Origin: Pempheris klunzingeri
Taxonomy: Eukaryota > Chordata > Actinopteri > Acropomatiformes > Pempheridae
Assembly: GCF_042242105.1 (NCBI RefSeq)
Contig: NC_092030.1
Coordinates: 7,867,001-7,931,000, forward strand
Length of the DNA: 64,000 bases
Direction of reading: 5' to 3'
Shown here: in pieces, positions 1,311 to 64,000 of the stretch
Numbering within the stretch: the stretch's first letter is position 1
How the letters are laid out: each line of letters starts with the position of its first letter
Notes under the pieces: model-generated
Told to the model about the DNA's origin: nothing
Database searches by the model: none
Seen by the model: only the letters and a program-made list of their open reading frames with translations
Program-made: the position numbers and the translations under genes

Positions 1311-1670
1311 TTACATTGGCTACAATAAATATCCAGAAAATGTGGAGTGGATATATGGACCAGCATAAAGTCCTGCAGCCTGGTCAGATGGCAGCTGCAC
1401 ATGCACAGAGTCTCCTTGTCGTAACGGATGCCTGATCCAGAAAGCCCTTTTTCTGTTCATCATATGTGTACATTAGTGGCTCATTGATCTTCATCAGGGC
1501 CACCCACACATTACCTCATTTGCAGTGGGCATGGTAAGCAAGATAGTAGATCCCTGGTACGTAACAGGTGAAAATGCCAGTTCGTGGATTGTAGTCCTGG
1601 TTGCCGTTGTGCAGGAGTTTGTCAAAGATGACAGGAGAGCCCACAGGAGGGAAGGGATCTGTGAAGTGTT
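1311..1670 (-). pseudogene. Collagen VIII/X C1q-domain pseudogene
   Basis: The minus strand reads as the C-terminal C1q (NC1) domain of a type VIII collagen. Recognisable blocks are [73 protein letters not shown] and, in another frame, [20 protein letters not shown] followed by the family's terminal LL-x-PM and a TAA stop. It is broken in at least three ways. A TGA replaces the glycine codon after HCK (near 1515). A deletion with frame shift falls after DQAS (near 1412). A TAG replaces the tyrosine just before the terminal PM (near 1318). The collagen triple-helix part is absent; homology fades above about 1665. In functional col8a genes this domain lies inside one large exon, so lack of introns does not show whether it was retrocopied. 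Confidence 0.8.
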
Positions 1671-1699
1671 GCCACAGTGACAGCGTTTGACAAAACCTC

Positions 1700-2283
1700 A
1701 AGAGCTTCAAAACTTTGCATCTTCCATGTCTTGGGAATGCTTGGACCAAATTTGAGGTGTCTGTGGCTAACCTGCTGAGAGAGAGACGTCTGAGAATAAA
1801 ACATGCACTTCCTCCCACCACTAGGTGGTGCTATGACTATGGTTCTAAATTAGCATGTGCATGTCTTCAGAGCCGAACAGTCATCAAACAGTATAAATGT
1901 GGTGAAGATAAGACCTTGTAGAGTGGAGTTACTGCAGTTTTGTAGAGACTTATCATAACTTTTCATCGTTGATGTCTTTTCTATCAGCTGACCAAGTTTG
2001 AAGTGGATCGCTTCTGTACATCTTGAAGAGATACATGAACCCACCAAATTTTGTACATGTACATAAAACACAGTTCCGGGGCTTGAAATTGGGAGGCGCT
2101 ATGGAGCCATTTTCCCACGCCCATTTGCAAGACCCTTAAAACATGTAATTTTTCACCACGACTGATGTAAAGTTTCATGAGTTTCCGTGTATGTTTAGGC
2201 CGTCAAACTTGCAATTTATTTCGGATGCATTTCCTTGCATTTCAATAGGGTCCTCGCACCGCTTGGTGCTTGGGCCCTAATTG
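1700..2283. repeat. Teleost interspersed repeat
   Basis: This stretch contains phrases I recognise from dispersed teleost repeats: the block around 1815 with ACTAGGTGGTGCTATGACTA, the block around 2090 with GGAGGCGCTATGGAGCC, and the terminal block near 2250-2280 with CGCACCGCTTGGTGCTTGGG. It probably is one non-autonomous element lying directly beside the C1q pseudogene. No coding frame is preserved, and the superfamily cannot be assigned from sequence alone. Confidence 0.5.
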
Positions 2284-5589: not shown

Positions 5590-8377
5590 TTACGATGTTT
5601 TGACCAGGTCATACACGTAAATGAGGAAGTCATCGTCAAACTTGATGAAGTAGACGGAGGGCTTGGCCTCCACCTGGTGGATGACCATGCCTGTTCGTTT
5701 GCCGCCGTCCTCTTTGGCGTACTCAACCTGTTTACCCACCAGGCTGTCAACCACCTCACCAGGCTCCCTCTCCGCTGGGACGCTGTCATCTACGGAGGGG
5801 CAGAAAAAGATGTTAGATGATGTCCACTAACTGGTATTCACATGTTCTCCATGTCCTGCCTGATAAAACTGAGAGAACAAAGATGAGAAAAACAAAGATG
5901 GGTGGATGAATCGGACAGATTTTAAGGAGCAATTTTGGAAAATAATTGTTTGCCATTTTACACAAATAAGAAACAAATAAGCCTTCTGTCACATAAAATA
6001 AGCCAACAAAACACTTAAGTGTCCAACACAAACACACAAAATTAACTAAATTTAGAAAAAGTTGTAAAGGCTTTCGAGATAGCCCGTGCTAATGTTTAGT
6101 GCAATGAAGTGTGTTCCATTGATGGACATTACATCAGAAATAAACTCATCCTGCTTTTAATTACAGTTAGCTTGGAATAATACATTTAAGGATCAGAATT
6201 TTCAATAAATTCATTATCAAATTATTTTTCTCCTCTGTCCACAAGTTTGAATACAGACTAAGATGAATCGACTCACTGGAGTCAGGCATGATGCGGAGGT
6301 CTCCCTCTTTGTAGTCATCCAGCAGCTGGTACATGTAGAGGACAGGGTCTTTCTCATAGGTTATGTAGAACCAGGTGGTCATGATGGGAGCCCGAGCCAG
6401 CACCATCCCCCTCCACTCCTCCTTAGGACCCTCCTCCGTCTCAAACATGTGCTCCACTGCTTTACCGATCATAGTGTCCGCTAGGTTCACATCTGTTAGA
6501 CGAGATTTGGCTGCAAGGATAAAAAAATTAATTTAAAGGCAGGGTATGCAACTTATTTTTTAGAGGCATTTTTTTTAACTTAAAAATAACAGCCCGACAG
6601 CAACCAATCACTAAGTTTGACAAAATAAAGAAATAATTCCGTTTTCTTTCTTATGCGAGCTAGTTGCAAAAAGAAGAATGGCAGAACAAGTGTGCCCAAA
6701 ATTTCAGCCACAGCTCAGCAACAGACTGGGTTTAGGAATGCCTGAAAGATGAGGTTTTCACAATCTAGCTACTTTCACCAGTCTAAGCTGGACTTTACTT
6801 TGAGCTAAATGCTAATCTTGTCACGCTAAAGTGCTACCATTACTATGCTAACATGTCTAGCTAGTACATTATCATGCATGTCAACATCTATTATATGTTA
6901 TGATGACCTAATGTACCTCCTATTATCATGGGACAATAATTGCTAAATGTTAGCCTGTTATTTTGCTTTGCCAGCATTAACGCACTAACAAAACACACAT
7001 TATGTTACACTAACACGCTAAATATTAATATGCTAACATAGTAGCATTGCCATGTTACACAAACTAATTGCTAAAAGTAAAATACTAATATGCAAATGTA
7101 GAAAATACTAGAGTGTTACAATGACATGTTGCATATTAGCATATTAACATGTTCTGCCAAGACTTAAGGTTTTGTTTGTGTTAGGTATATGTGATTTACA
7201 TTTATTATTATTAAGTCACATGAAAATGACTTTCATTCTAAAACCAGTAAAGTAATTGTGCAGCCCCCCATCACCACCGTGTTCAATTGGTATGATCCTG
7301 TTCTCAGTTCAGTCTTACCCAGTCTGTCAGGGAGCACTTCCAGCCCCTGAACCCTCTCATCTTTATGTAGCTCCAGACCATAAACACAGTCAAAGCCATC
7401 ATACTTTATCAGATAGAGAGATGGGTTCACTGGCACCTGGTGGACACACATACATTTACAACATGTTTTTTTCCACACATCCTTCAATACGTTTTCAAGT
7501 CAGGACATTTACATTAATAATAATACACATTTTAGTTTGCTGCAATAAGGCAGAAGTGAAACAGTGAGGGCAGCAGTGGTGTATGCAGACTCTACAGTCA
7601 TAGAAATAGTGGAGGTCCATGTCATTATTAGGCAGTCTATGGATCATGTGACCATAAAACTACTGCAAAGCCCCACTAATCCCTCACTCAGTCGGTAATT
7701 ACTCCCTCTGCTCACCTGGTCGAGTACTGTTCCTTTCCAGATCACATGTCCTCCTCCTTCCTTCCAGACATGTTGGATCCTGCAGCCGACGATGTTGCGT
7801 CGTGGCTGCGACAAAACTTTGGTGGTCGGACCCAGACTGCTCTTATGTTTCCTTCCAGGGGACATGAAACAACTCAGTCAACATTATCTGCTTGAGATTG
7901 TGTTTAACTGCACTTTGAATTGCATCTGTTGAATTCTCAGTTGAGGGAACAGAAACATTATCTCATACTATGATCTCCTGTTCCTTTCTACACGACATTT
8001 GAGTCCACTAACAAAAATATAAATGACCTGCAAGGCTTCTTAACTCACTTATGGGGGTTCTTTTTTTTCATCATATTTGCAGAAACACCCGCATGCCCTG
8101 AGGAGAAAAACAAATCACAGCACATTCATGAAACCCTGCAAATGAGAGGTGGCTTTATATGTTCTAGCCCATTTACTATTACTGTGGTGGACTGTCTCTT
8201 TGCAACAAGTTTCAAATCTCAGACAGCTGATATTTATACAAATCAACATATACAAGTCACAAAACATGCACCACCAACCATGGAGTGTTTTCTAGCTACA
8301 TGTCAATAGCTGTGTGGCAGTGAGGACGATCTCTGACCTGCATCAGCTGTGTCTCTGTGTCCCGGAGTGCTCTTCAT
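5590..8377 (-). CDS. spin1: Spindlin, histone methyl-mark reader (spin1-like)
   Basis: Six coding exons on the minus strand: 8338-8377, 8049-8097, 7716-7851, 7319-7436, 6277-6510 and 5590-5789 (TAA stop). They join in frame to give 258 aa; human SPIN1 has 262. The protein starts [20 protein letters not shown] and ends YVYDLVKTS, as the family does. Three Spin/Ssty Tudor-like repeats lie at about residues 50-105, 128-183 and 206-256. Repeat 2 keeps the aromatic residues of the H3K4me3 cage: F in HMFET, W in EWRG and tyrosines in ITYEKD and LYMYQ. Spindlins are nuclear readers of H3K4me3 with adjacent arginine or lysine methylation, and they promote rRNA and Wnt-target transcription; this is family knowledge. 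Repeat 1 is one residue shorter than human SPIN1 between its two cage tryptophans. Which teleost spin1 or spin4-like paralogue this is needs a tree. Confidence 0.93.
6560..7170. repeat. Degenerate GCTAACATGCTA-type repeat in spindlin intron
   Basis: The intron between the 6277-6510 and 7319-7436 exons contains, especially from 6800 to 7150, many imperfect copies of a 10-12 base unit of the form ATGCTAACAT. Such AT-rich arrays are common in teleost introns. No coding frame is present. Confidence 0.5.
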
Positions 8378-43549: not shown

Positions 43550-44040
43550 TCGTTAACGAAACTCAAGTCCATCATGGACAACCCCTCTCCCCCCCTGCAT
43601 GAGACTGTGGGGGCCCTCAGCAGCTCCTTCAGCAGCAGGCTGAGGCACCCAAACTGCAAGAAGGAACGCTACCGCAGGTCATTCCTCCCATCAGCCATCA
43701 GACTCTTTAACAGCAGCATCACTGGCTGATGTCAACACACCGAGAAACAGCCCATAGTCACTACATGGTAGCTAATTGGCACTGTTTCACTCATAATTTC
43801 ATATACCTCTCCGTACTGTACATTTATGTTCATAGTGTATATACTTATATGTATAATGTATATACATAGTGTATATATCATTACAATATATGTTTATTTA
43901 CTATTGCTTTTTTTTCTACTGTTGCTTATTTTATTTCTTTTTTTTTTCTCTATTACTGTTTATCTTGTCCCTGTCTCTGTTGCTGCTATAATATGTGAAT
44001 TTCCCTCTATGGGGGATCAATAAAGTAATAAAAGTAAAGT
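43550..44040 (+). mobile_element. LINE ORF2 C-terminal remnant and 3' end
   Basis: Translation gives LHETVGALSSSFSSRLRHPN, CKKERYRRSFLPSAIRLFNS and SITG then stop, a block typical of the end of many teleost LINE ORF2s. It continues to TGAATTTCCCTCTATGGGGG and ATCAATAAAGT with a short AAGTA-type tail. The copy is 5'-truncated and ends about 100 bases before the MADF gene promoter. Confidence 0.75.
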
Positions 44041-44215: not shown

Positions 44216-47200
44216 ATGGAGGCGTCTCCGTTCAGCTACACACCGGAGAGGTACTGGACGGAGGAGAAAGAGAGGGCGCTCATTGCGTTTTTCTCCAGTA
44301 AGTCAAACACTTTAAAGCAGCAACTGTTCATTCCATAAAAGTTACAGTTTTCATTGACATGTTGTCGTAAGTTGCAATATTTTGTGGCAACCGTTGCTCG
44401 ACGGCATTTAGCAATGGGCGATGCAGACAAGTTAACAGCAATGGCGACTAGCAACTGAAATCAAGTTAGCTTTAATCCTCCCAAAAATACCTCAACAAAG
44501 CCCCTTTATTTTTTGTTTACGTTTTATAAGCGTTTATCTGTGTGTCTCAATAGAAATAGATTGAATTAACGAAGTTTGCTGGCGTCCTAAATTTGGCCAA
44601 CTTCTTATTTTTAGCCATATTTTAGTTGAATATTATTCTTCGTGTTTTAGTTTTGTCTAAAGCCTAATGCACATTATACATTTCCACATAGGGGCACATC
44701 CGGTAAATGAAGCCGCCCTCTGACAGTGAATGAGTAGTGACTGCTGATGCTCCTGCAGGTTTCCCTCACATGCACCAGGCTAAAGCAACTCAGGGCAACT
44801 TAGTAGAGTCCAGAAAGCACCACAGGAAACGACAACAACTAAGAACCACTGTGATCATCATAGCCTCTCTGATCGCAAACCAACATTACTATGTAGATAT
44901 ACTCTTTTATACATTCAAATACCTAATTATGCGCATGTCTAACACTTCAAATCATACTCAGCATCAGACACAATCTGTCATAGCCTGCAACCTGAAAACA
45001 TGTCATTTTGATTGGTCTACATACAGGTTTACTTATTTGTAGACTGGTCAGAAGTTCTCCTCTTGTGGAGACTCTTGTTGACCTTCAGCCAGAACTACAG
45101 GCTGTTAGAACCTGCTGAATTGGAGTTAACACAACTCCAATTTTTATGATCAACCAATTTGCCCCCCCCCCCAAAAAAGAAATGCTTAACAGCTGCTTTG
45201 ATTGAGTGTCTTATTTGTTTTCATTTCCCAGAGCACAGTTGCCTGTGGAACCATAAGTCAGAGAGCTACAAGAACCGACAGCTGCGATGGAAAACCCTGG
45301 AACACCTGAGGATCCTCCTGTCAGCCCACCCCCCACCTGTTCATTTCACAGGTAAGGCTGTGGTCCAATTCGTTGATTTTCAAAGATGCATTTTGTAAAG
45401 GGGAAAAAAATCTTTCTAACCTCATTGTTCTGTTTTTTCTTTCCAGTGGAAGACATTAAGAACAAGTTCAAGAATCTTCGTACCACCTTTCAGCGTCAGT
45501 ACAAAATGGTAAAAGCAAGCAAGGTGTGCAGGTCGGACGACGTGTTTGTGCCGCAGTGGAAACACTACCAGCAGCTCATGTTCCTGCAGGGCTGCTGGGA
45601 CCAGGACGATGGCCCAGATGAACCGCCGCTCTCGCCGCTGACTGTTCCACAGGAGGAGAGCCAGCCTACCCTCATGTCCCCGGGACAGAATATCTCCTTC
45701 CTTCCCACCCCGTCCACCTCCTCTCCATCTTCCTCCTCGTCCTCCTGCGTCCCCTCCAACACGATGGTTAAATGTTACTGGACTGAAGAGAGGGAGCGTG
45801 CCCTGATAGCTTTTTACTCCGGTAAACTAAACACTTGATTCGAGATTCAGCACAATTTGTTACTATGCAAAGGCAAAACCTCATGATAGTTTTAGAATTA
45901 TAATGTTTTGTAGGTGATGGGTGTTGTGTGTTGTTGTGCACAGAACATAACTGTCTCTGGAACAAGAAGTCTGAAAACCACAACAACCGTCAGCTCAGAC
46001 TGAAACTGCTGGAGGCTCTGAGGAGCCAACTGTCCGACCACTCGGTGTCTTTCACAGGTAAGTATCACACGGTCCTCCTTGTTTTATAGGCTCCAGCCCA
46101 ATGCGTGATCATTGTCAGGGTTAGGATATACCTCATAATGACGGTACAATATCAGCACTACTTACACATCCAGGACTTCTAGGCCAGTGGGGTGCAATTT
46201 ATTTTGGATCACTTTTATTCTTATCCCATAAACCATCCCATGACCCCCTGACATGGTGCGGCCCCCAATTAAAGAACCATTGTTTTAAAGTAATTGTTGA
46301 ACATTTCAATACACTGATTCACTTTCTTTTCCTGTGGTTGCACTATGGAGCTGTTATGCTGTGAGTCAGATCTGTTTTGCTTGTCTCATGCACACTCACA
46401 AGGACACGTGCATAGATGACATAATGCACATTCCTGTCATATCACAGCTGTCATGGTACTGCTGGTTAGCAAACATGCATGTAAACAGCACAGGTTTCAA
46501 ACTTTTAAGAGAAACCAGGCTTTGCAAATGTTTTATGAGAAAGGCAATACATTCTTAATATTTGTTTGACTTTAAATATTCAGAAAATGCGTATTTGTGA
46601 GAAACTCTGAATATAAATGTACGTTTTGTTGGTTTAAGAAAACTCTACAGGGCCCCTTATAGATGGCGTCAGGACATGGATAGCCTAGCTTAGTATAAAG
46701 CCTAGAAACAGAAGGAAACAGCTAGCCATGCTCTGTATAAAAGTAAAAAAATGACCCTACTAACAGCTCACTTATTAACACGGTGCTTCTTTTTTGTTAA
46801 TTCTGGAAGCATTTTTTAGTGGCCAGTCAGGTGCAATGGCTGTTCACAGCTTCTTGAAGTCTCGTCATCTGAGTGTGGTTGCCAGGTTTGGTACCATTGT
46901 GACTGTTAAGACACCAAAACCAAAACCTGTGCTCATTGACAGTATCGGGCAATCCAAGTAATAGCTGGAGATTTGGAACAGAAGTTCTTGATCTGGACAT
47001 CAAAAAATAATTTCAGCATGTAACTAAAAGTAACCTAAAGCCACAGCTTGTCCTTTCTACATTTAAGTTTTTGTGCAGATTAAACAAACAAGATAAAACG
47101 TGTCAATCAGTGAGCTAGGCTAGCTGTTTCTCCCTGCTTCCAATCTTTATGCTAAACTGTGCAAACCATGTCTTGGCTCCAGTTCTGTGCATAATACACA

Positions 47201-47874
47201 GATGTGATATTGATCTTTTCAACTCATTCATGGAAAAAAAGCAAATGAACATATTTCCCAAAATGTGGTACTATTCCTTTAAGTAACCTTAACTGGTATA
47301 CATGTATAGTTAATTTTAAACCCATCCGAGTTATACATCTAAAGTGTTAGCATATAGTTAAAGTCCCTTGTTGTCCCTTGTTCAGTATAAAATGGTATCA
47401 ACAGGAAGCAAAACGCAATGAAAACCAAAACTTCCAAATGCGGCTAAAACAAATATGAAAACGTTTCCCCTTGTTATCATATTTTAATAGTGAAAAATTC
47501 AAAATATCCATTTCCTTTGAAGCAAAATCACGACAGCTGCATAAAGCCATTTCTGACCACTGTAGGGCAGAGAGACAAACATTTAGCATCAGCTTTAACA
47601 TCAGTCGCCTACTTTCACATCCAGCAGCCACAGAACATTGTCAGTCCATTGGACTTTTCTTTCTGTCCACCTAGCAGTATTTGCTCTCCTTTAAGCTCTG
47701 GTTTGGTCTCCACTACCACCTGATATTAATACCTGATCCTTTAACTGCAAGATGTCTCACTTCATGATGCTGCTCATGTGGGGATTCTTGAATCCTTAAT
47801 TTTGAATTCCTGAATCATTGGGTCTCTTAATAAATGAAAGCGCCCGGAGATAACGCTGTTATGAATTGGCGCTA

Positions 47875-47906
<32 letters not shown>

Positions 47907-50653
47907 CTTCAGCAAATGTGCTATAAAACCAAAACTCTAAACTAAAAGAGACTAAAAAGCTCCAAAGAGCTGCAGAGTTGGTGATAATTTTGATAAATGT
48001 AACAAATCAAATAGGAGATGTGAGCATTTACTCATGAGCTTATGGAAAGTGACTCCTATGTTGCTGTTTTGCAGTTGAGGATATAAAGTGCAAGTTTAAG
48101 AACCTTCGGACAGTTTTCAACCGTGAATATAAGGTGGTCCAGGCTAGCAGGGCCTCAGACAAACTCTACGTGTCCAAATGGAAACACTACCAACAGCTGC
48201 TCTTCCTCTGCGAGTCCTGCGACGAAGATGACAGCCCAGACGACCTGCTGATACTGGAGCCACAGGAAGACAAGGATCTGGAATATGGAAGCCAAACACC
48301 TTCTTCCACCCTGAGCAGCCTGTCCTCCAGCTCCACCCAACCCAACAGTTTCATCAGGTTCAACAACCCCTCTGCTCCCTCCAGCAGCGCCAAAACCAAC
48401 GCCAGTGCTGCATACCAAGTCCTCCTGTCTGCATCCCCGGAGAAAGTCAAACTAGTGAGCCAAACAACAGCTCCCACACTCCCTGCCTCTCCATCCACCT
48501 CACGATCGGACTCCAAATCTTGTACAAACCCTTCCCCTCTAAGTTTGTCAGCATCTGGTTCCGTCCAGCCAGACAGCAGGCTGAGCACTGACTCTCGCTG
48601 CCACTGGAACGAGGCCAAAGTTCAGCAGCTCATATCTTTTTACTCTGGTTGGTAACATCACTTACGGTGCACACACGCTGTAATAAGGGACAGCATGTGT
48701 TCTTATTTGTTTTTGTTTTTTTTAGTTCTAATGAATATTTATACAGGGTTAACAAGCGTATGTATCCACCTATGGGCATCAGGGGCTGTATTGTCAAAGC
48801 ATTGTATATTATATCTAATGTACTATAGGCGATAGATGAATATAAATATACATTGGACCACAAGGAACACGTTCAATTAAATGAATAGATCTTAGGTATG
48901 CTAGAAACTGTTTCACAGATTTCATCCACTAATCAAACTCAAATATTGACTTGGCATCACAGTAGCAGGGTGATGTGTAAACCGTCATCTTATTAAGTTG
49001 CCATCTATCAAAATATGCTTTCATTGTTGCATTTTTCCAAAAGAATGGCTAAAAACACACAAAACACAATGAGACACTTACCTGCAGCAGGTGACTGATT
49101 GTGACTTAGTAGTCAGCTGGACTGCCTCCAACTTCTCTCACACTTAGGAGCTGGCACTACGGGGACACACTGCCTATCTGTCAATGCTCACGTGCAACTC
49201 GGCTGCCGCTCATCAAAATAGGCGAGTCAGAGTTTCGCCTATGTTTTCCTAGACACGCATGATCACAGCAAAAATAGACAGAGAAAATGAGCTGTCATAG
49301 TCATGTTGACATCAAACCAGCAACACTATGCTATGTTAGTAGCAGCTAGTGTAGCCTGGAGCCTCTGGCCTGCAGCAGAGATGGAGAGCAGGCTACAGGG
49401 GTCTGTTAACTGCGTCCCTCTTAACTCCACACTGCCAGATTGTTTTCATTTTCAATTGTGTAGTCCTCAGGCCCAGCCAATGCTGACATCACTCGAGGCC
49501 GTTGATCAGATTTCACAGCTCCCTCTGGAGACACAAAAGGCTTCATACAATTTTTTTTCACATGTGCAGCGGTACCCCCAAACACCTGCAAACAGATCTT
49601 GGTGTGTAAAATTAGTGGAGTTCCCCTTTGTCAATACAGCCCCAGATCAGTTGAGCCTGGGATGAGTAAGTTGGTGGTTGGTGGTTTCCAAAGTTGCTAG
49701 TGTTATGTAGAGGTCAAGTGAAGTGCCATGAGAGGAATAATGGAGGAGGAAGATTTCCTTTTATAGCTGTATTTTTATGTTGTTCATCTGAGAAAAGGTT
49801 TTCCTTTTTTCTAGAGCACATTTGTCTGTGGAACCACAAGTCAGAGAGCTATAGGAACCGACTGCTGAGGCAAAGCCTGTTGGAGACGCTGAGCAGCCTC
49901 CTGTCTGACAGTGAGCCAGTCCCATTCACAGGTAACAATGAAGGATAGTTGAGGTGTTTCCGGTTTTATGAGCTGTTGTGATGGTGATCTTTATTTCCCC
50001 AAAGCTGTTTTATGTATTGAGGTTCTGTAATTCTTCATTCTTCAGTGGAAGACATAAAGACAAAGTTCAGGAACTTGCGAACCATCTTCCAGCGTGAACA
50101 CAAAGCAGTGAGTTCAAACAAAACGTGTGGGTCGGAGGACTTTTACTTTCCAAAGTGGAAACACTACCGCGAGTTGATGTTCCTCTGCGACTCCTGCGAC
50201 GAGGATGAGCAACCTGAAGACTTCCGCTTCCATGAGCCGCAGGAATCCAGCCTCCTCCACCTGGACGGCCAAGCCCCTCCATCCTCCCTGCACTACCACG
50301 GCCGCACCCAAACTGTTACCAAACTCAACATCACATCACGGAGCCTCGCAGCCCCTCCCTCGCCTACGCCTCCAGACTCCCAGCACTCCTCCCCCTCCTC
50401 CTCCCCCTCCACATCCTCCTCTCACACTGACAACAGAGTGTCAGGACGCAAGCGGGCGAGCCGCCGCCTGCCGCCCACCACCAGCGAGGTGCTGGGCTTC
50501 ATGAGGACGTTCTGTCACAGCCAGACGGTGTCCCCACACGCAGGGTTCCTGAAGTATGTGGAAGAGTGTCTGAACGAGACGCCGCCAGACAAAGTGAAGA
50601 AACTGAAGAAGAAAATAATTGAGACGATCCACAGCGTGTCAGAGGAGGGTTAG
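44216..50653 (+). CDS. Triple MADF-domain protein with BESS-like tail
   Basis: Seven exons join in frame to 662 aa: 44216-44297, 45232-45351, 45447-45821, 45944-46057, 48075-48647, 49815-49931 and 50046-50653 (TAG). Three MADF (Myb/SANT-like, Adf-1 type) domains lie at about residues 21-114, 186-276 and 416-507. Each shows the same landmarks: ALIAFFS or similar, CLWNHKSES or CLWNKKSEN, VEDIK-x-KF-x-NLRT-x-F and WKHY-x-x-L-x-FL, then an acidic patch (CDEDDSPDD, CDEDEQPED). Ser/Pro-rich linkers separate them. A basic GRKRASRR near 592 could be a nuclear signal. The last 45 residues (FLKYVEECL, PPDKVKKLKKKIIETI) look like a BESS motif, which often follows MADF and mediates protein contacts. MADF domains bind DNA, so a nuclear transcription factor is likely. 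All six introns are phase 1. I know no named vertebrate gene with this layout. Confidence 0.93.
44277..45590 (+). other. MADF module 1
   Basis: Residues about 21-114, encoded by the end of exon 1, exon 2 and the start of exon 3. Landmarks: ALIAFFSKHSCLWNHKSES, VEDIKNKFKNLRTTFQRQY and QWKHYQQLMFLQGC. Introns split it after FFS and after HFT, both phase 1. Confidence 0.9.
46640..47285. repeat. Decayed inverted-repeat element in MADF intron 4
   Basis: TAGCCTAGCTTAGTATAAAG and GAAACAGCTAGCC at the left are mirrored near 47110-47155 by GGCTAGCTGTTTCTCCCTGC and CAATCTTTATGCTAAACT. The phrase also occurs near 63520 (GTAGCCTAGCTTAGCATAAA). It is a common teleost non-autonomous element; ends are not sharp. 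Confidence 0.5.
47785..47906 (+). repeat. Retroposon 3' end with TTGA tail, copy 3
   Basis: TTCCTGAATCATTGGGTCTC, GTTATGAATTGGCGCTATAT and AAATAAAGATTGATTGATTG: the same 3' module as at 9560 and 12690, in an intron of the MADF gene. Confidence 0.75.
48630..50200 (+). other. MADF module 3
   Basis: Residues about 416-507, spanning the end of exon 5, exon 6 and the start of exon 7. Landmarks: LISFYSEHICLWNHKSES, VEDIKTKFRNLRTIFQREH and KWKHYRELMFLCDSC. Intron positions and phases match modules 1 and 2. The exon 5 donor is an unusual G|GTTGGTAAC. Confidence 0.9.
49095..49650. repeat. Probable interspersed repeat in MADF intron 5
   Basis: A stretch ending GTGTGTAAAATTAGTGGAGT and TCCCCTTTGTCAATA, with GCCTGGAGCCTCTGGCCTGC inside, resembles a known teleost non-autonomous repeat. 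Boundaries are uncertain. Confidence 0.35.
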
Positions 50654-63185: not shown

Positions 63186-63843
63186 CGGACTGAGTGTTGA
63201 ATCATCATCACTTTAGACAGTAACAATGTAGGAGTAATGGGAAACTTACAGGAAATGTGTGTCTGTCTGTTGCATAGTTTACTGAACTGAAATGTGAATC
63301 ATTTTTTAAACTTCACTGAACAATCACAAAGTAAAAGAAACACTTCACTCCTCTTACTGCTGCTATCCTGTCAATCTCTCTCACTTAGCATGGCACACAC
63401 ACACACACACACACCACCTAACAGAACAATAGAAACCCTGATAACAGCCACAGCAAGTATGACTCAACAAGTTTCATCGCTGTGTGTCCAGTACAGAGAT
63501 AAGTCCAGAATGTGTGTAGCCTAGCTTAGCATAAAGACACCAGGCAGGAGCAGACAGCTAAACCTGACGTCACTGCATTAAACTGTGTAATGAGCTGGTT
63601 TATTAGGAAGTCATATGTGCAAATTGATGACACAAAACATTCGCCATTTTCTTGAAGGTGAATCTGACTTCTGGTTGTGTCTGTGCAGGTGGAGGAGGGC
63701 GGTAAGGCAGACACTGTGGAGCGGCCTCTGATGGTGGGGGATGAGATCATCACCATTAATGAAGTAGAGCTGAGTGGATTCCGACAGGAGGCCATCGCTC
63801 TGGTCAAAGGATCGTACAAGACTCTGCAGCTCACCGTCCGCAG
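55107..63843 (+). CDS. shroom3: Shroom family protein, N-terminal PDZ exons (partial)
   Basis: Two coding exons, 55107-55244 and 63689-63843, join in frame (46 codons, then 51 codons plus two bases) and the gene continues beyond the window. The encoded protein opens [13 protein letters not shown], then a complete PDZ domain at residues about 18-98: [63 protein letters not shown] and [22 protein letters not shown] is the carboxylate-binding loop. [17 protein letters not shown] is closest to SHROOM3 as I remember it, though SGFRQEAI also occurs in SHROOM2. Shroom proteins bind F-actin and recruit Rho kinase through C-terminal ASD domains to drive apical constriction; those domains lie outside the window. 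The 8.4-kb intron is filled with transposon relics. Confidence 0.9.
56311..56366. repeat. (TG)n microsatellite
   Basis: TG run with one CT interruption in the shroom intron. Confidence 0.95.
56593..57005. repeat. Probable DNA-transposon remnant
   Basis: The left end CCAGTGGTGGGCCGTCAGGG, followed by CCAGCAAGGCCTTCTCTGCT, resembles the start of a teleost hAT-type element. No matching right end was found, so it is probably truncated. Confidence 0.35.
57640..58440 (-). mobile_element. L1-like LINE reverse-transcriptase fragment
   Basis: The minus strand carries [17 protein letters not shown] (58275-58325), the RT active-site motif, then YLGIHI, and further on [20 protein letters not shown], a block of L1/Tx1 ORF2. 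Numerous stops and frame shifts separate the parts, so it is long dead. Confidence 0.75.
59460..59660. repeat. Possible SINE-like repeat
   Basis: CTTTATTGAACAGTGTCAGT and GACATGAAGCAACGGTCCCT resemble a common teleost retroposon. Boundaries are uncertain. Confidence 0.3.
60877..61952 (-). mobile_element. hAT (Charlie-type) transposon relic, 1,076 bp
   Basis: The ends CAGGGGTGTCCAAACT and AGTTTGGACACCCCTG are perfect 16-base inverted repeats. CATTAGAG is duplicated on both sides (60869-60876 and 61953-61960), the 8-bp target duplication of hAT elements. The minus strand encodes pieces of a hAT transposase: [40 protein letters not shown] and, downstream, [20 protein letters not shown]. These correspond to the catalytic-domain TTDGAPAM-TG and EVRWLSRGKVLKRFF blocks of GTF2IRD2/ZBED-like transposases. 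Internal deletion and frame shifts have killed it. Confidence 0.9.
61356..61724 (-). pseudogene. hAT transposase fragment
   Basis: A 122-codon frame inside the hAT relic. It carries the block around the second catalytic aspartate (TTDGAP), with the family's M after GAPA changed to G. The N-terminal zinc finger and most of the C-terminal dimerisation region are absent from this frame. Confidence 0.8.
62897..62932. repeat. (AC)n microsatellite
   Basis: AC run, followed by further interrupted CACACA to 62950. Confidence 0.95.
63080..63184. repeat. Compound (TG)n(TCTG)n(TG)n repeat
   Basis: TG units to 63130, about five TCTG units to 63152, then TG units again. It is complementary to the AC run 150 bases upstream. 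Confidence 0.95.
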
Positions 63844-64000
63844 GTACAGACACTGTGTGGGTGTGTCTCTGCATGTGTGTTAAAGTGTTAGACTTCTGCA
63901 CAGGCCCGAAACTCAGATCCAAACCCAGCATGTACGTATGTAAGACACAACTTAAGTGATTAGTGCCATATTTTTGCTTTGTTTAATCCAATAATGACCT

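Follow-up and report, generated by a model that had tools for sequence, protein, structure and literature searches.

The window, a 64,000-nucleotide stretch of fish contig C19 (C19:7,867,001-7,931,000), carries on its forward strand a gene of seven exons that extends from 44216 to 50653. The joined exons measure 1989 nt and encode 662 amino acids followed by a stop codon. All six introns are in phase 1 and have GT-AG ends, and the start codon, read directly in the sequence, lies in the context AAAATGG. We built this model from genomic sequence alone and made profile searches in the 646-Mb genome. The seven-exon frame of 662 residues with phase-1 introns had been proposed in a first-pass annotation of this DNA; its coordinates, length and phases agree with the model presented here.

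Table. Features of the triple-MADF gene (window positions; a slash marks the exon boundary at a donor site).
Feature	Position	Strand	Content
Exon 1	44216..44297	+	Start codon, first part of MADF 1 (module from 44249); donor CCA/GTAAGT
Exon 2	45232..45351	+	MADF 1 middle
Exon 3	45447..45821	+	MADF 1 end, acidic patch (to 45622), 50-aa Ser/Pro linker, MADF 2 start (from 45773)
Exon 4	45944..46057	+	MADF 2 middle
Exon 5	48075..48647	+	MADF 2 end, acidic patch (to 48244), 118-aa linker, MADF 3 start (from 48599); weak donor CTG/GTTGGT
Competing donor GT (TTG/GTAACA)	48652..48653	+	4 nt downstream of the exon-5 donor; score -0.68; stop after 422 aa, MADF 1 and 2 only
Exon 6	49815..49931	+	MADF 3 middle
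Exon 7	50046..50653	+	MADF 3 end, acidic patch (to 50221), Ser/Pro tail, basic stretch, C-terminus, stop
C-terminal 70 aa	50441..50650	+	Basic stretch, then BESS-like tail (from 50543, by eye)

The protein contains three MADF modules, M1 (residues 12-126), M2 (177-287) and M3 (406-519). Each belongs to the MADF family by the curated Pfam cut-off: PF10545 matched at profile positions 1-84 in every module, with 55.8, 64.0 and 60.2 bits, respectively, against a cut-off of 22. The three domains first claimed for this frame were thus recognized independently of one another, and the prospect, raised at the time, that two of the three might score below threshold did not materialize, since all three pass. 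Apart from PF10545, a single Pfam family exceeded its cut-off in the protein, PF13837 (Myb/SANT-like DNA-binding). The computed isoelectric points of M1, M2 and M3 are all basic (10.0, 9.4 and 8.7), and the modules are separated by Ser/Pro-rich linkers of 50 aa (M1-M2) and 118 aa (M2-M3). An acidic patch had earlier been quoted for two modules; it is in fact present after all three (CWDQDDGPDE, CDEDDSPDD and CDEDEQPED), and a PQE motif follows 5-8 residues beyond each patch. The homology among the modules therefore extends past the MADF domain, through the acidic patch, to the shared PQE. A PDB sequence search gave no match for the gene, the five NCBIfam matches were weak and fell well short of their cut-offs, and Rfam had no match in the window at gathering scores. 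A bacterial-type promoter scan of this fish DNA and its base composition were uninformative.

MADF domains are usually paired with a BESS domain, and the first-pass annotation had appealed to this pattern. The pattern itself stands, but BESS is not recognized in the triple-MADF gene. Pfam gave no BESS match (PF02944) in the full protein or the C-terminus at E<=1, nor for the C-terminus at E<=10 with a query in which one residue was mistyped, and a PF02944 search of the genome returned four BESS matches, none of them in this gene. We rejected an assignment to the MADF-BESS type since Pfam sees no BESS at the C-terminus. When the tail alone was aligned by hhalign with three BESS domains of the genome, the probability was 0.5% (E 0.11); a loose alignment of three tails, including that of the window gene, reached 7% (E 0.0051). 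On these profile comparisons, a distant link between the C-terminal tail and BESS is conceivable. The basic stretch in front of the tail (GRKRASRRL, 50444-50470) is, by eye, a possible nuclear localization signal.

Upstream of the gene lie exons that, by eye, resemble those of an MFSD14-type (MFS) transporter; two of them had no Pfam match and one had no meaningful PDB match. To the left of these, on the reverse strand, Pfam searches with stretches of the frames detected a C1q domain exon (window 1516-1830, 51.5 bits) and a Spin/Ssty exon (window 6167-6532, 83.1 bits). On the downstream side, a PDZ exon (window 63668-63883; 27.8 bits, cut-off 23.2) is followed by a Shroom ASD2 domain (from C19:7973173 on, 118.3 bits) and by ankyrin repeats (from C19:7982490 on, by Pfam). 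The PDZ exon and ASD2 are presumably parts of a single Shroom gene. The frame preceding the ankyrin repeats looks like a SOWAH N-terminus, although this frame had no Pfam match. No cyclins were found among the frames of the next 20 kb (C19:7989901-8009700); this stretch beyond the ankyrin gene is a repeat block broken by a run of N, possibly an assembly gap, with the same frames on both sides.

This arrangement resembles one described in the guppy, where contig IV of LG12 is reported to carry an MFS transporter, a 'MADF-domain containing protein', Shroom3 and a SOWAH-like gene, in that order (PMC7643365). The downstream order, Shroom and then an ankyrin (SOWAH-like) gene, is found here too in the form of the PDZ exon, ASD2 and ankyrin repeats, although our Shroom is known at the family level only, whereas the guppy neighbour is Shroom3. 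For the guppy MADF gene itself, the relevant section of that paper gives neither a domain count nor an exon structure. Judged by gene order, the triple-MADF gene is probably the orthologue of the guppy LG12 gene and has probably already been annotated in that species. In the guppy, the LG12 gene island is flanked by repeats with male-biased coverage, while the island itself is without Y-like coverage, according to the same section (PMC7643365).

Searching the genome with PF10545 yielded eight matches, all 36 candidates having been scored: two in the window gene, two on C1, and one each on C10, C20, C4 and at a further C19 locus (C19b). A second C20 module (C20b) was found by reading frames and confirmed by Pfam. 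Of the five stop-free MADF loci, at least three (the window gene, C1 and C20) carry more than one module; this count is a lower bound because reading around C10 and C19b covered limited stretches. The C20 gene (C20:22029767-22032068) has tandem MADFs of 56.7 and 53.1 bits and shares with the window gene a phase-1 intron in each module, before VEEVK/VEAVK. It differs in having two modules and no F-x-S intron, and its modules show 21-24% identity with the three of the triple-MADF gene. A C-terminal exon of the C20 gene shows a BESS-like tail but no Pfam BESS. At C1:20345549-20347713, two MADFs (59.8 and 56.0 bits) are followed about 1 kb on by BESS (51.7 bits), an arrangement that probably constitutes a single MADF-MADF-BESS gene. 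Unlike in the window gene, the C1 MADFs are intronless, each one open frame, and the BESS is clear. The C4 match (C4:22816458-22816661) contains one TAG and two TAA and is perhaps a decayed copy, and on C18 a BESS domain lies in a 250-aa frame (C18:1604343-1604447, reverse strand) on a contig without a MADF match. When the 662-aa protein was compared with its own genome, seven places matched (E<=0.01), all within the triple-MADF gene itself, and no relatives were found among the viral contigs and genome contigs searched.

The gene belongs to the known MADF family, on which research is scarce and mostly concerned with Drosophila, and whose distribution is described as excluding mammals in the accessible text of PMC11893794. 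No described function was found for it, and the open-licence literature, as far as its text was available, yielded no description of a vertebrate gene with three MADFs; a phrase in PMC6274879, 'three MADF-BESS family proteins', refers there to three proteins and not to three domains. The earlier statement that no named vertebrate gene has such a layout was nonetheless too strong, given the two-MADF loci on C1 and C20, the MADF gene annotated at an apparently syntenic place in the guppy, and Drosophila dAdd1 with three MADFs.

We compared the three modules with each other and with six other MADF copies of the genome (C19b, C20a, C20b, C10, C1a and C1b; the stop-containing C4 match was not included). 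The modules share 56-66% of their residues (M1-M2 73/111, M1-M3 64/114, M2-M3 66/111) but only 15-27% with the other copies, and are accordingly closer to each other than to any of the six. The tree of modules that had been suggested earlier was run with these copies (nine rows), and the three window modules grouped together (support 95/94; 96% of 200 bootstrap trees); four of its six inner branches are open, and the C19b and C10 rows are very long. In label shuffles, 14 of 500 did as well as the observed grouping.

The intron positions, with joints of the other copies read by eye, told two different stories. The first intron (F-x-S/) interrupts all three window modules, whereas the frame of each of the six other copies continues across this position without a break; it is therefore diagnostic of the triplication. 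The second (before VEDIK) has phase-1 counterparts at the identical position in four of the six (C19b, C20a, C20b and C10) and is missing in C1a and C1b. It probably predates the triplication, and so is no proof that a cassette was duplicated. Both positions had been offered as evidence for duplication of a whole exon cassette; we rejected their joint use because the F-x-S/ intron alone is confined to the window modules, so that the claim keeps the module clustering and this intron in its favour and loses the intron after the FT block. Because the modules cluster in sequence and the F-x-S/ intron is restricted to them among the copies compared, an origin by intragenic duplication of an exon block is well supported at the sequence level.

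Synonymous differences between the modules are large (pS 0.84 for M1-M2, 0.57 for M1-M3 and 0.78 for M2-M3), with saturation in two of the three pairs and a dS of 1.09 for M1-M3, whereas nonsynonymous differences are small (pN 0.19, 0.26 and 0.23, respectively). Synonymous change that approaches or exceeds saturation marks the triplication as old, and the pN and pS values together indicate past constraint on each of the three modules. As to the order of the duplications, codons favour M1-M3, proteins favour M1-M2, and the tree does not decide between them. By protein identity, M1 and M2 are closest and M1 and M3 least alike. Across 49 shared sites, however, M1 and M3 have 31 identical codons against a shuffled mean of 22.1, a value reached in 8 of 2000 shuffles, while M1-M2 (20, mean 21.6) and M2-M3 (24, mean 23.1) do not stand out from their means. 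M3 may have changed faster, or gene conversion may have occurred between modules.

Could the repeat pattern reflect three adjacent genes, one for each module? Beyond the pattern itself nothing speaks for such an arrangement, and we regard it as extremely improbable, for exon 3 (375 nt) runs from the last part of M1 through a linker into M2, and exon 5 (573 nt) likewise from M2 into M3. Exon 3 has no stops in the coding frame and four in each of the other two, and exon 5 has none against seven and seven. From sequence alone, this bridging in one open frame makes the three modules a single gene. A product with two MADFs deserves more weight, because the exon-5 donor is the weakest of the gene. 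On a matrix of donor frequencies, CTG/GTTGGT scores 0.04, compared with 1.3 to 8.6 for the five other donors under the same matrix, and its close competitor TTG/GTAACA, use of which leads to a stop after 422 aa, is weak as well. The best GT in 48560-48899, at 48895 and 248 nt on, scores 2.75, above both nearer donors; as the exon-5 frame stops at 48655, an exon extended to this GT would omit module 3. If the main product arose through the GTAACA donor, the later GT or exon 5 read into the intron, module 3 would seldom or never be used. Against this, the MADF of module 3 is complete (60.2 bits) with GT-AG ends, and the 608-nt last exon is open in the coding frame until the final stop. Moreover, the low pN of M3 (0.23-0.26 against the other modules) relative to its pS (0.57-0.78) argues that module 3 is translated. 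Its conservation favours the three-module product, and we consider a mainly two-MADF product unlikely. A still bolder proposal, which we hold to be very unlikely, is that an old teleost triple-MADF regulator reads long composite sites and that donor competition at exon 5 switches module 3 on and off, giving 662-aa and 422-aa forms with different targets.

The sequence shows the three domains, a gene model, a shared descent of the modules and part of the guppy-like neighbourhood. On this basis, we propose as the probable reading that the seven-exon gene encodes a 662-aa nuclear protein whose three-MADF array is old, arose by exon-block duplication in a one-MADF gene and binds clustered motifs multivalently. 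An ancestral gene with one MADF would have undergone old duplications of the exon block to give the three-module array. The modules would each bind short related DNA motifs and, joined by linkers that are presumably flexible, act together to bind strongly to clustered or repeated sites. The acidic patches and the C-terminus may contact cofactors, by analogy with fish ADF-1L and KAT2B. Recognition of long or repeated sites by the three modules, already suggested at first pass, is in this sense a plausible putative function.

Characterized MADF proteins, as described in the accessible parts of the respective papers, offer partial parallels. Drosophila dAdd1 likewise has three MADF domains, predicted to be basic, but unlike the window gene it carries an ADD domain (PMC4249797). 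Drosophila Mzfp1 is a chromatin protein that also has tandem MADFs, although two, and differs in that a six-finger C2H2 cluster does the specific DNA binding (PMC11229372). A basic isoelectric point of MADFs is associated with DNA binding in both papers (PMC11229372, PMC4249797). Among vertebrates, ADF-1L of the miiuy croaker (Miichthys miiuy) is a MADF protein that binds KAT2B and, depending on its MADF, stimulates 7SL transcription (PMC11893794); that text speaks of 'the MADF domain', and the protein can be likened to the window gene by description only.

These same proteins raise the alternative that MADFs mainly mediate protein interactions and that the product is a chromatin scaffold and not a sequence-specific binder. 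The authors of the Mzfp1 study judged its MADFs to be primarily protein-protein contact modules (PMC11229372), and the link between fish ADF-1L and KAT2B needs the MADF (PMC11893794). However, all three window modules are basic, and PF10545 and PF13837 are the sole Pfam families over cut-off in the protein, in contrast to Mzfp1 with its zinc fingers; a scaffold is unlikely, but is the most serious competitor of multivalent DNA binding. MADF genes have also been proposed to derive from PIF/Harbinger elements (PMC11893794), and the gene could then be a recently captured accessory (Myb-like) protein that is multi-copy by chance. The genome holds at least 29 matches to the transposase (PF13359), with all 53 candidates scored, and none of those found lies on contig C19, on which ground we rejected a recent transposon protein. 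An intron position common to other MADF copies, synonymous sites near or beyond saturation, and a guppy MADF gene that also stands beside Shroom3 (PMC7643365) count against recent capture as well and make it scarcely credible.

An old three-module array and two-module loci coexist in one genome, and the tree suggests more than one origin for tandem MADF arrays in fish. In vertebrates, MADF proteins have received little attention, and the triple-MADF gene provides a clean case for how repeated Myb/SANT-like modules alter site recognition.

Two repeat-like features were noted around the gene. In intron 4, at about window 47840-47910, the sequence TTGGCGCTATATAAATAAA is followed by repeated GATT at the end, which we take to resemble the tail of a fish SINE. 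A dispersed repeat (43560-44027, forward strand; left boundary provisional) stops about 190 bp short of the start codon and has at least 46 matches in the genome among those listed, 40 of 967 candidates having been scored. One copy, at C20:22027919-22028339, precedes the first MADF frame of the C20 tandem-MADF gene by about 1.4 kb, a placement that may be due to chance.
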